A stretch of DNA of 51,560 bases, from contig FOPE01000020.1 of NCBI GenBank assembly GCA_900113385.1, forward strand, positions 1 through 51,560. Direction: 5' to 3'. The position numbers and the translations under genes were made by a program. Source of the DNA: Lachnospiraceae bacterium C7 (GTDB lineage: Bacteria > Bacillota > Clostridia > Lachnospirales > Lachnospiraceae). Below, piece after piece: positions 236 to 37,570 of the stretch (positions within the stretch are counted from its first letter, which is position 1; each line of letters begins with the position of its first letter). Under the pieces are notes generated by a model that saw only the letters and a list, made by a program, of their open reading frames with translations, was not told the DNA's origin and did not search any database.

Positions 236-345
236 ATGTGACCTCCTATTGTATGCGGTAATCCCTGTTACCTGATATTGTTTTTTCAATTAATATCTTA
301 CAGGTAAATCCACGAATCTACAATTGTGAGGTCACTTCATATTGT
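236..345 (-). ncRNA. candidate IS110 bridge RNA / structured transposase leader
   Basis: The non-coding stretch just upstream of the IS110 transposase holds nested inverted repeats. A perfect 8-bp outer stem joins GTGACCTC at 238-245 with GAGGTCAC at 328-335. Inside lie a 5-bp stem 257-261/268-272 and a stem 271-279/292-304 interrupted by three bases. In the IS110 group proper the bridge RNA is encoded upstream of the transposase, so position and fold agree. The identity is inferred: the target- and donor-binding loops cannot be assigned without the other element end and target. Read on the minus strand, the outer stem covers the GGAGG of the transposase ribosome binding site. Confidence 0.5.
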
Positions 346-348
346 CTC

Positions 349-381
349 CTATTTCCTATACTTTATCGGTATAGAAAAATA
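349..381. repeat. inverted repeat near the IS110 left end
   Basis: TATTTCCTATAC (about 349-360) is mirrored by GTATAGAAAAATA (about 368-381) around a short AT-rich loop. It may be part of the left-end structure of the IS110 element or of its leader RNA, or a weak terminator. The exact left end is not identifiable here. Confidence 0.35.
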
Positions 382-13787: not shown

Positions 13788-14729
13788 TTAAGCAACAATA
13801 GCTTCTAAATCTTCTGCCTTAGAAATGCTTGTAACTTTTACATCTACGTTCATTTCTTTTGCTTTTTTTCTTACAAATCCACTTAATACTTTACCTGGTC
13901 CGATTTCAATAAAGTTGTCAGCGCCTTGTAAAATTAATTGTTCTATATCATTTTCAAAACGAACAGAAGACTGAACTTGATTAGTTAAAAGTTCTTTTAT
14001 ATCTTCTCCCGTTGTATTTTCATCAATTAACTTTCCTGTGTAGTTAACTGCAACTGGAAGGTTAGGTGATTTAAAAGTCACATCTTCAAATAATTTTTCC
14101 AATGCAATTTTTGCCTCATGCATATATTTTGTATGGAAAGGTCCACTTACATTTAATCTTACTAAACGTCTTGCACCCATTTCCTTTAACAATTTTTCTG
14201 TTTCTTCTACTGCATTTAAATCACCGCAAATTACATACTGTTTTGGGCAGTTATAATTTGCAATTGTAATATATCCAATATCTTTTTTGCTAATTTCTTC
14301 TACGGCTTTTTCTACATCCTCAACTTTCATTCCAATGATTGCACTCATTGCACATTCTTGTTTTGATGCAGCTTCTGCCATTTTTTTGCCTCGATATTCA
14401 ATAACCTTTAAGTAATCTTCCTCTGTTATAACACCTGCTGCATACAAAGCGCCATACTCACCTAAACTTAGGCCTACTGCCATATCTGGTTTGATGTTAT
14501 TTTCTTCTAAGATTTTTGTAACACCAATTGCAAACATTGCCATTGCTGGCTGTGTGTTTTGTGTTAAAGAAAGTTCCTCTAGTGGTCCTTCATGCATTAA
14601 TTTTTTATAATCTTTTGACAATTTTATGCTATCTATAAAATTCTTATATGTTGCATATTTATCATAAAAATCCATTCCCATAGATACAAACTGACTTCCT
14701 TGGCCAGCATACATAAATACAGTTTTCAT
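13788..14729 (-). CDS. fabD: malonyl-CoA:ACP transacylase FabD
   Basis: A 313-residue enzyme that loads malonyl groups onto ACP. It has the N-terminal YAGQGSQ, the nucleophile Ser in GLSLGEYGALYAAG (about residue 88), His in SGPFHTKYMHEA (about 200) and a C-terminal FIEIGPGKVLSGF. It starts 14 bases after the upstream flavoprotein gene. Confidence 0.95.
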   Translation of the reverse strand: MKTVFMYAGQGSQFVSMGMDFYDKYATYKNFIDSIKLSKDYKKLMHEGPLEELSLTQNTQPAMAMFAIGVTKILEENNIKPDMAVGLSLGEYGALYAAGVITEEDYLKVIEYRGKKMAEAASKQECAMSAIIGMKVEDVEKAVEEISKKDIGYITIANYNCPKQYVICGDLNAVEETEKLLKEMGARRLVRLNVSGPFHTKYMHEAKIALEKLFEDVTFKSPNLPVAVNYTGKLIDENTTGEDIKELLTNQVQSSVRFENDIEQLILQGADNFIEIGPGKVLSGFVRKKAKEMNVDVKVTSISKAEDLEAIVA

Positions 14730-14743
14730 TCGTTTGTCCTCTT

Positions 14744-15820
14744 TTATTCTATATTGCTGTTGTAATCTGTTAAAATTTCGTTTATAAGTTCTTTAACTGT
14801 TACAATTTCAGAAACTCTTGAAGCATTTTCTCCACAGAAAAACAATCCTTCTTCTCTGTTACCTTTTACTGCTTCTATAAGAGCTCGGCTTATACAATAA
14901 GGAATTTTGTCTCCTTTTGGACAAGCCTTTAAGCAGTTATTACATTTTTTTGCGAAAAAAGTTTTTCCTTTTTCTAAGCTTTGTAAAAGCGGTGTAAATA
15001 CTGCTCTTGCTGGCATTCCAACAGGACTTTTTATGATTTTTATGTCACTTTCTTTTGCATCTACTATAACTTTTTTAAAAGTATCACTAGCATCGCATTC
15101 TTCTGTGGCAATAAATCTAGTTCCTATTTGAACTCCGCTTGCTCCGTTTTTTACGGCATTGGCCATATCTTTTCCTGTAAAGATACCTCCACCTAAAAAG
15201 ATGTTAATTTTTCTTTTGAATTTTTCTTCATATGGTTTAATTGCTTCTAAGACTTCACTTAAAATTGTTAAGTTGTCTTGGCATGTTTTTCCTTCTAGGT
15301 CTTTATTAGAAAAACCTAAATGTCCACCTGCCTTATAGCCTTCAATAACCATAAAATCTGGTATTGAATCATATTTTTTTGAAAAACGTTTACACAATAA
15401 TTCTGCTGCTTTTTTACTTGATACAATTGGTGCATATAATGCTTTTGTACCTTTTACATATTCTGGCAAATTAAGTGGTAAACCTGCTCCTGAAATAATC
15501 GCATCAGCTCCAGATTCAATTGCGCATTTTACTGTTTCAGCATAATGGCTTACTGCAACCATTATATTTACAGCAACTAATCCGTTTCCTTTTGATATTT
15601 CTTTTGCTTTTTGAATATGATATTTTAAAGCTCGCATGTTAGCTTCAAATGGATTACTTAAAAAATCTTTTTCTTTGTATCCAATATTTACTGAGCTTAT
15701 GACGCCCATACATCCTTCTTTTGCTACATTTCCTGCAAGTTCTGATAATGAGACGCCTACGCCCATTCCGCCTTGTATAATTCCGTGTTTTAATAGTTTT
15801 CCGTTTAAATCTAAATTCAT
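14744..15820 (-). CDS. second FabK/nitronate monooxygenase-like flavoprotein with cysteine cluster
   Basis: A 358-residue protein of the 2-nitropropane dioxygenase / nitronate monooxygenase fold, the same superfamily as FabK next to it. It shows GIIQGGMGVGVS near the N-terminus, DAIISGAGLPLNLP, VIEGYKAGGHLGF (substrate-side His), FLGGGIFTGKDM and GVQIGTRFIATEEC (FMN phosphate region). Unlike FabK it has a C-terminal segment of about 60 residues with CNNCLKACPKGDKIPYC and a later FFCGEN. The Cys spacing (C-X2-C-X3-C-X7-C) could bind a metal or iron-sulfur centre. It lies eight bases after fabK and 14 before fabD, so it is part of the operon. Its role, such as an alternative enoyl reductase or a detoxifying flavoprotein, is not known. 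Confidence 0.8.
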   Translation of the reverse strand: MNLDLNGKLLKHGIIQGGMGVGVSLSELAGNVAKEGCMGVISSVNIGYKEKDFLSNPFEANMRALKYHIQKAKEISKGNGLVAVNIMVAVSHYAETVKCAIESGADAIISGAGLPLNLPEYVKGTKALYAPIVSSKKAAELLCKRFSKKYDSIPDFMVIEGYKAGGHLGFSNKDLEGKTCQDNLTILSEVLEAIKPYEEKFKRKINIFLGGGIFTGKDMANAVKNGASGVQIGTRFIATEECDASDTFKKVIVDAKESDIKIIKSPVGMPARAVFTPLLQSLEKGKTFFAKKCNNCLKACPKGDKIPYCISRALIEAVKGNREEGLFFCGENASRVSEIVTVKELINEILTDYNSNIE

Positions 15821-36319: not shown

Positions 36320-37570
36320 TCACTTAAACTTTACTCCATTAGCTACACATACCTTGATGAAATCTGAGAATTCTTTTTCACCATCATCCATTTTTTTACA
36401 GATTTCGTACAATGCACAGATTTCATCTATAGTAATAGTTTTTTCTGTTTCATTTGATTCAATCAGATTACACATATTTTGTATCATTTGCTCGTTACTT
36501 ATATTGCAATTACTGTAATCAAATCTTTTTTGACTCCACATCAGCTCTAATTTTTCTTTATAATAGACTTCTTTGTAGAGTCCCTCTGATGAAAGTGCGT
36601 ATATTTCTTTTCTACCAATTCCGTATTTGTTTTTTAATAATGAAGTAAATTTTTTGTTATCTACATTTGAATAGTAATAATCTATGCACAAATTTTTAAA
36701 ATTCTTATCATCAAATGACTTGAGCACAAAAAATTTTCTACACATTATGTCTTCTAATGAATGGGTTGCATAATCTCTATCAGGAAAAACTTTTTCAAAA
36801 ATTTCAGGAGGCATCTTTGAAATCTGATTATAAATAATATTGATACTCTCTGTTATTGATCTTATAGATTTGGCAGTATCCCCACTAGTACTTAAGCTGT
36901 TTTCAACGACCCCGTATATGGTAAGCGGTTCTTCTATTAAATAAAAATCATTTTTTTGCGAAGCTTTTATCCACATTTCATAGTCCTGAGTTTGTAAATA
37001 TGAAAAATCAAATCCTCCAAGCTCCTCATAGACTTCTCTATCTATCATGCATGATGGTGCACAAAAAAAATTTCTTCCTTGCAACAACACATTACAAATT
37101 TCATGTTTTCTTACTTCTAATTTATTATTAAATATTCTTAAAAATCTATTTATTTTTCGTTCGTCTTTTGCATATCCAATATCAACATATGTAAAACATA
37201 CTTTGCATTCTGGATTATTTTCTAGTGCTTCAACTTGCTTTTTTATTTTATCCGGTTTAAATGCATCATCTGCTCCCATAAAACACACATACTTTCCCGA
37301 ATAATGTTTTGCCATTTCATCAACTATTTCAAAACAAGTATTGTGCTCAGATAAAAAAAGATGAATTCTACTGTCTTTTCCATACTCTTCATATACCTTT
37401 TTTATTACTTCTCTTGAATTATCTGTTGAACCATCATCTGATATAAAAAGTTCAAAATTTTGATATGTTCCATTCATTACACTTTCGATAGCATTTCTTA
37501 CATATGGCTCATGATTATAACATGTAATTACCGCTGTCACTAATGGTTCATTATTATTTTCATTTTTCAT
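36320..37570 (-). CDS. GT2 family glycosyltransferase
   Basis: A 416-residue protein with a GT-A domain at the N-terminus: VTAVITCYNHEPYVRNAIESVMNGTYQNFELFISDDGSTDNS (nucleotide-binding and DDGS motifs), CFMGADDAFKPDKI (the DXD-like metal site) and the acceptor-side TQDYEMWIKAS. The last 180 residues are not assigned. It probably adds a sugar to a cell-surface polysaccharide or glycoprotein. A second GT2 protein of similar build is encoded at 45740-47383. Confidence 0.87.
   Translation of the reverse strand: MKNENNNEPLVTAVITCYNHEPYVRNAIESVMNGTYQNFELFISDDGSTDNSREVIKKVYEEYGKDSRIHLFLSEHNTCFEIVDEMAKHYSGKYVCFMGADDAFKPDKIKKQVEALENNPECKVCFTYVDIGYAKDERKINRFLRIFNNKLEVRKHEICNVLLQGRNFFCAPSCMIDREVYEELGGFDFSYLQTQDYEMWIKASQKNDFYLIEEPLTIYGVVENSLSTSGDTAKSIRSITESINIIYNQISKMPPEIFEKVFPDRDYATHSLEDIMCRKFFVLKSFDDKNFKNLCIDYYYSNVDNKKFTSLLKNKYGIGRKEIYALSSEGLYKEVYYKEKLELMWSQKRFDYSNCNISNEQMIQNMCNLIESNETEKTITIDEICALYEICKKMDDGEKEFSDFIKVCVANGVKFK

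Follow-up and report, generated by a model that had tools for sequence, protein, structure and literature searches.

The window analysed in this study, a stretch of 51,560 nt from Lachnospiraceae bacterium C7 (contig FOPE01000020.1), begins at a contig end, where a transposase gene on the minus strand runs off. The remaining 5′ part of this gene (positions 1 to 235; start codon ATG at 235–233) encodes the first 78 aa of a DEDD transposase of the IS110 family, a fragment that alone matched the Pfam family DEDD_Tnp_IS110 with an E value of 8e-4 and 19.7 bits, under the cutoff of 29. A complete copy of 371 aa, 100% identical to the fragment over 78 aa, was found in a Lachnospira MAG (L009), and Lachnobacterium bovis DSM 14045 also carries close copies of the element (L016, L017 and L030). 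In the L009 protein, Transposase_20 and DEDD_Tnp_IS110 were both over the cutoff, giving the C-terminal PF02371 and N-terminal PF01548 domains by which the IS110 family is recognised, and NF033542 (IS110 family RNA-guided transposase) scored 198.9 bits. The transposases of the full-length relatives have 370–373 aa, unlike those of the IS1111 group, which are given as 330–350 aa (PMC11187229).

Seven more loci in the same genome matched the region upstream of the gene at 99–100% identity. All eight copies share a common sequence from AGACAATATGAAG onward, with one extra A in L008, and differ in their outer flanks; therefore, the start of the element was placed at approximately position 347, with a leader of approximately 111 nt. 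The dinucleotide AG at this left end (346–347, minus strand) is probably the core, as both right-end guides of relatives include AG and the eight copies have AGACAATATGAAG in common. Next to it, the left target flank AGG (348–350, minus strand), found in only 5 of the 8 copies, forms with the core a Shine-Dalgarno-like target, AGGAG. One locus (L008/L100, contig C45, about 36719–36983) is a degenerate copy: its leader is intact, but the transposase gene behind it is reduced to displaced pieces.

The left subterminal inverted repeat of the element is ATGAAGTGACCTC (328–340, minus strand). The copy at the right end reads AAGGTCACTTCAT in the own genome (12 of 13 positions) and either AAGGTCACTTCAT or the 13-bp GAGGTCACTTCAT (e.g., in L009–L011 and L013) in close relatives, and the pair falls within the 7–17 bp of the subterminal inverted repeats that characterise IS1111 elements. 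A third copy, oriented like the right-end one, was observed over the Shine-Dalgarno sequence of the transposase. In the L034–L084 clade the left repeat is mostly ATGTAATGACCTCC and the right one GGAGGTCATTACAT, with GGAGGTCAT and GGAGGTCAC predominating as the inner copy.

Pairing of the left repeat with the third copy forms the basal stem, P1, of a predicted rod of about 100 nt. A first-pass annotation, made from the window alone, had described an 8-bp perfect stem directly upstream of an IS110-family transposase, with the ribosome binding site in its gene-proximal arm, and this description was borne out. On the plus strand, GTGACCTC (238–245) and GAGGTCAC (328–335) are perfect reverse complements, and the region is the minus-strand leader of the gene starting at ATG 235–233. 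The outer arm (328–335) is the inner part of the left subterminal repeat and the inner arm (238–245) is the third repeat copy; the Shine-Dalgarno sequence AGGAGG (242–247) lies within and just past the inner arm. Two further stems were said to be enclosed; enclosed stems are indeed predicted, and there are more than two of them. On the minus strand they are P1b (ATTGTA at 319–324 with 248–253; UA changed to AU in 13 rows of the alignment), P2 (GTGG at 310–313 with CCGC at 255–258), P3 (CCTGT at 300–304 with ACAGG at 264–268) and an apical hairpin, P4 (GATATT...AATATC, 274–297), which varies among relatives.

The structured leader (236–346, minus strand) is far more stable than expected from its composition. 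The segment 233–346 folds at −30.6 kcal/mol, compared with a mean of −16.95 kcal/mol for shuffled sequences (z = −4.79; 0 of 200 shuffles as good), and when the segment was extended by 13 coding and 6 flanking nt, z was −3.44 (1 of 200 as good). No family was matched in an Rfam scan of the window at gathering scores.

For comparative analysis, 64 of 80 kept loci and the window gave an alignment of 65 rows, which was reduced to 53 distinct leaders by merging duplicates and leaving out the malformed L015, L020, L075 and L080. In these 53 leaders, 92.4% of the cells pair (89.0% in shuffled controls), and the covariation score of 0.109 exceeded both the shuffled value of 0.060 (0 of 500 as high) and those of slid structures (at most 0.052). 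Changes on both sides were found in 8 of 24 pairs, compared with 3.6 after shuffling (0 of 500), with further pair types no more frequent than in shuffles (18 vs 16.8; 131 of 500). In 29 of the 53 leaders, columns 21/107, which adjoin P1, do not pair. RNAalifold, unaided, kept 18 pairs with a small covariation term of −0.36. By this alignment, the fold is conserved and covaries more than chance.

With the own genome included in both counts, a covariance model built on the leader gave hits in 16 of 295 genomes from the order and in 6 of 398 from the phylum. Among 22 further loci folded singly, L107, L113, L115 and L131 lacked the rod, L130 had a stem beside the ribosome binding site, and L114 and L119 were cut before the inner arm; in the remaining ones P1 was whole, or partial where the sequence was cut. 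In two loci from Spirochaete MAGs (L086 and L088) and in L132, the pairing of P1 is kept with other letters, such as GTTGTGTCT/AGACACAAC in L086.

Most P1 pairs are near-invariant in the 53 leaders. Since the outer arm doubles as a DNA end, this conservation alone is no proof of an RNA function, and the third repeat copy may instead be a DNA site, bound by the transposase together with the left repeat for self-repression or for marking the end, with the stem as a by-product. Such a reading is consistent with the letters common to all three copies (e.g., in L086 and L034), with the little variation in P1 and with its mismatches: P1 has 30 A.C cells and 3 G.U cells and is therefore better kept on the antisense strand (97.6% pairing) than on the sense strand (91.3%). 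It is nevertheless unlikely in our judgment, as P1b, P2 and P3 are not terminal repeats and P1b and P3 change on both sides. The strand signature of P2 is reversed (48 G.U and 0 A.C cells), favouring a sense RNA, and its G.U cells would turn into A.C mismatches in the antisense strand. Overall the strand signature is mixed, and the sense strand forms the more stable fold in 36 of the 53 leaders. In one subclade the inner copy is GAGGCCAC, which gives an A.C mismatch in the sense RNA, whereas the right end keeps GAGGTCAC where it could be seen (L013, L026 and L027); even so, the Shine-Dalgarno sequence is still closed in the model (0.00 in L013).

The repeat-made feature at the ribosome binding site is not universal among wider relatives, as judged from six of them. 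A similar repeat was found only in ISEc45 (L142; ATGACCT/AGGTCAT, 7 bp), where a search for a right-end copy gave none. L143, L145, L146 and L147 had no such repeat of at least 7 bp, and L144 had an unrelated 9-bp repeat 115 nt upstream, with no downstream copy.

In the relatives, left ends of approximately 110 nt are accompanied by long right ends that follow the stop codon and hold a structured RNA; the end was recognised by its pattern in 28 of 32 cases, giving lengths of 270–455 nt. One stretch of this RNA contains the left target flank plus AG, and another contains the complement of AG plus the right flank. With elements lacking a readable guide or flank left out and with shuffles that ignore the relatedness of the elements, the left guide agreed with the last 3 left-flank bases at 71 of 81 positions in 27 distinct pairs (33.9 after shuffling; 0 of 20,000), and the right guide agreed with the first 4 right-flank bases at 81 of 84 positions in 21 pairs (31.9 after shuffling; 0 of 20,000). 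Agreement dropped to 88 of 135 with 5 left positions and to 98 of 126 with 6 right positions, both still at 0 of 20,000. The copy in the window is cut, and right ends elsewhere in the own genome carry the same kind of RNA. By this guide-target agreement, the right-end RNA is the bridge RNA or seekRNA of the element, located in a longer non-coding region downstream of the transposase as in IS1111 elements.

The position of this RNA bears on the main proposal of the first-pass annotation, namely, that the leader is a bridge RNA whose fold also blocks translation of the transposase. In IS110-group elements the bridge RNA does lie upstream of the gene (PMC11208160), the predicted fold of the leader is a rod interrupted by internal loops, and one stretch of it beat permutation on the left flank (1 of 300). 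This best stretch, however, agreed at only 52 of 104 positions (41.8 expected), on the right flank 134 of 300 permutations were as good, and the unpaired letters of the leader vary little. A bridge RNA in the left end, as found in the IS110 group, was not detected in this comparison of leader loops with target flanks, and the guides that follow the target sit in the right end. It is therefore very improbable that the leader serves as the bridge RNA or as an additional one, and the claim that one fold serves both purposes fails as stated; what is retained of it is the occlusion of the ribosome binding site, predicted from the fold, the covariation and the calculated accessibility.

The leader was also considered as a copy or antisense of the right-end RNA and rejected, because local alignments in five elements were no better than shuffles. 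An 8-nt complementarity between the two (CGTGGATT/AATCCACG) is present in most elements and does not covary, with CGCGGATT facing AATCCACG in L021, L072 and L080, and CGTGGATT facing AATCCGCG in L024. As a separate observation, the right subterminal repeat lies in a predicted hairpin of its own in 26 of 28 right ends (last 55 nt; e.g., L010, L034 and L043).

In the own genome, the right-end RNA (L090) contains CTAGGAG and AATCAACCT, the halves of CTAGG-AG-GTTGATT, a Shine-Dalgarno context. All nine right junctions of this genome (L089–L094 and L096–L098) read AACAG-GT, with GTT in eight, and all nine are followed on the same strand, 6–10 nt past the core, by a start codon (ATG in eight, GTG in L091) opening a frame of 70–481 codons. 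The chance of such a start codon per site, estimated from the window, was 0.07 in general and 0.13 behind AGG. Among eight related elements tested, seven had a start codon (TTG in L021) at a distance of 5–11 nt that opened a frame of 55 codons or more, and one (L029) had no gene start behind the right junction; more distant relatives carry other guides. As the nine own junctions lie 6–10 nt ahead of a start codon, the guide seems to be directed to Shine-Dalgarno sequences in its own genome. When the exact empty site of the left flank of the window was sought in 20 other genomes, the only matches were two in G002, both short and weak, and for three other copies the flanks had diverged too far to give an exact empty site. 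Among these, the flank of L098 was matched in three genomes, including L149 over 525 of 855 bases at 67%; the gene in L149 has AGGAAGGA before its ATG, which fits a Shine-Dalgarno target and is no proof of one.

The accessibility of the transposase Shine-Dalgarno sequence was calculated for different transcript starts. In the window, its probability of being unpaired was 0.03 in the full leader and 0.58 if the RNA starts in the apical region. Medians were taken over 59 of the 65 rows, some of them identical, with L015, L020, L027, L075, L077 and L080 left out. They were 0.02 for read-through leaders, 0.03 with a start at leader position 12 or 14, 0.47 with six of the eight outer-arm bases missing, and 0.60 when the RNA starts internally; the median for 200 shuffled controls was 0.48 (10–90% range, 0.18–0.76). 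The model is less closed for L024 (0.25 in read-through RNA, 0.61 with a start at position 12) and for L071 (0.25).

Taken with the conservation of the fold, these values make it probable that the region acts as a translational lock on transcripts coming from the host or from a circle junction, with the bridge RNA supplied from the 3′ end of the element. The region would be the 5′ leader of the transposase mRNA in an IS110-family element with an IS1111-type layout. Whenever a transcript begins at the left subterminal repeat or further upstream, this repeat would pair with the third copy over the Shine-Dalgarno sequence, and the resulting rod would be expected to keep ribosomes away from the transposase; the fold, its covariation and the calculated occlusion point to a drop in translation. 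The nine junctions place the element in Shine-Dalgarno sites, in sense orientation, and its guide may serve to steer it there, downstream of host promoters. A lock would matter in this position, since read-through would otherwise keep supplying transposase. In place of the strict coupling first proposed, a looser one is possible on this model, in which one transcript yields guide RNA and little transposase.

Promoter-like sites were considered as sources of such transcripts. GACAAT at 341–346 (minus strand) is a candidate −10 element of a circle-junction promoter, for which the TTGACA of the right end would lie 17 nt off. RNA from this TTGACA-17-GACAAT promoter would start at about leader position 12 or 14, at the stem, and would still be locked. 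Read-through and junction transcripts should, by the model, mostly be translated poorly; something must open them, and the candidates are a start within the leader, an antisense RNA from within the transposase gene like that of ISPpu9, or another factor such as a protein. As to the first, a weak promoter-like pair, TTGTAG-17-TAAGAT, lies inside the leader (295–323, minus strand) and was not called by a consensus scan. The pattern TTG[CT]A[AG] followed by TANNNT at 15–18 nt occurs in 60 of 65 leader rows, with 17 nt in 55, but it is no independent evidence, owing to common descent and to its overlap with P1b and P3.

The antisense candidate is a plus-strand site within the transposase gene, TGGACA-17-TATACT (201–229), from which RNA may start at about 235–238. 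As the consensus scan gave three promoter-like sites in 700 bases, no more than shuffles (4.6), this site is proposed from its conservation. TGGACA-17-TATA[CG]T was matched at 10 of 12 positions in the window and in 19 of 43 relatives scored, among them L085, L086 and L088, whose proteins are 41–49% identical to that of L009, and synonymous shuffles of these matching rows reach it in 0–4% of cases. Over codons 2–14, codon identity to L009 is 9/10 in L024, 7/9 in L086, 7/9 in L088 and 6/9 in L085, compared with 36–47% elsewhere. This identity is clearly over that of other stretches of the gene in L024 (0 of 227 as good) and L088 (1 of 89), and is less distinct in L086 (10 of 129), L085 (8 of 69) and L024 compared with L086 (8 of 135); L060, and L085 compared with L086 (14 of 51), were not above other stretches. 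Together with the better pairing of P1 on the antisense strand and with the precedent of ISPpu9, in which the −35 of such an RNA falls inside the opening codons of tnp (PMC8450116), these data make it conceivable, though on balance doubtful, that the main agent of the region is an antisense RNA like Asr9 that starts from 201–229 and pairs with the leader, opening or shutting the ribosome binding site. Against this are the L034–L084 rows, with scores of 7–8 of 12 and no excess over synonymous shuffles (L032 and L033 score 9), as well as the equally good codon stretches counted above for L085 and L086. In addition, the predicted 5′ end of the antisense RNA covers the Shine-Dalgarno sequence, which would then be blocked by this RNA instead of being exposed.

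The left end also contains a minimal reading frame, ATG AAG TGA (332–340, minus strand), which follows the AGGAG of the target at 5 nt and might be translated after insertion. Were a ribosome to melt P1 in this way, insertion at a strong Shine-Dalgarno sequence would switch the transposase on. An ATG with an early stop is found at most left ends of the clade, and AGGAG stands 5 nt upstream in the copies with an AGG flank. These letters, however, are already part of the terminal repeat, the frame (ATG TAA) is also present in elements with other targets, and the ATG is missing in L077 (ACG) and L049 (AAG); we regard such a switch as quite improbable, and a lock made by the terminal repeat accounts for the leader better in our view.

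Leaders that fold over the start of a transposase gene are known from IS10, IS50 and IS200, where burial of the Shine-Dalgarno sequence protects from outside transcription; the transposases of these elements are unrelated to the one described here and have no guide RNA.

The closest precedent for the leader lock, by comparison of the two descriptions, is ISPpu9 of Pseudomonas putida (IS110/IS492 family). According to PMC8450116, its transposase 5′-UTR buries the ribosome binding site, an antisense RNA is also made, and mutations weakening the 5′-UTR fold raised a tnp-lacZ fusion 26-fold, so this kind of control is already known. The element studied here resembles ISPpu9 in a 5′-UTR fold that buries the ribosome binding site of tnp, here by computation, in a further RNA downstream of tnp and in an AG repeat at the insertion point. 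ISPpu9 also has an antisense promoter that reaches into the first tnp codons, which the promoter-like site predicted at 201–229 recalls. The present element differs in that the 5′-UTR of ISPpu9 has 244 nt, compared with approximately 111 nt conserved over the clade here. The ISPpu9 family is described as having no clear terminal inverted repeats, whereas a terminal repeat would be the lock here. ISPpu9 targets REP sequences, whereas the target in the own genome resembles a Shine-Dalgarno sequence (PMC8450116).

The subterminal inverted repeats are shared with the IS1111 group (ISEc11, ISPa11 and ISKpn4; type elements compared by description, PMC11187229), as is the long non-coding region with a seekRNA downstream of tnp (PMC11187229, PMC11208160), and the candidate junction promoter may be a further likeness; the passages of PMC11187229 consulted make no mention of a third repeat copy at the ribosome binding site of IS1111 elements. 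With IS621 and the IS110 group the element shares an RNA-guided DEDD recombinase and two-sided guides around a dinucleotide core, and it differs from them in having the bridge RNA downstream rather than upstream of the gene (PMC11208160). Searches of the literature, covering titles and abstract openings with few subscription papers, brought up neither a repeat-made lock on the ribosome binding site in IS1111 elements nor targeting of Shine-Dalgarno sequences by an IS110-family element. Within these searches, the use of a terminal repeat as the lock, conserved in a clade whose bridge RNA lies 3′, and a guide for Shine-Dalgarno sites are apparently new.

These features suggest, tentatively and as something less than an even chance, an RNA-guided transposon whose guide copies a Shine-Dalgarno context, so that it lands in sense between host promoters and genes, where its DNA ends double as RNA locks and host transcription yields the 3′ bridge RNA while the recombinase stays off. 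If so, three roles would meet in the terminal repeat, those of recombination site, ribosome-binding site and riboregulator, and a guide apparently reading Shine-Dalgarno sequences would find a target in many host genes. Bridge-RNA recombinases are under development for genome editing, and the means by which natural elements keep themselves quiet have been described in very few cases; hiding the transposase start in a conserved leader made from the element end would be a simple and testable control.

Two further observations concern individual loci. In L096 (1–394) and L097, on contigs C36 and C33 of the own genome, a common sequence adjoins the last approximately 53 nt of the right end of the element; on the other strand of L096, the apparent start of another IS110-type transposase was noticed by eye, which suggests a nested insertion present twice. 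Finally, plasmid pCY186 of Butyrivibrio proteoclasticus B316 carries, at 14017–15135 (L141), a relative whose leader and 3′ non-coding region are of the same kind; being named and having a complete record, it could serve as a reference copy.
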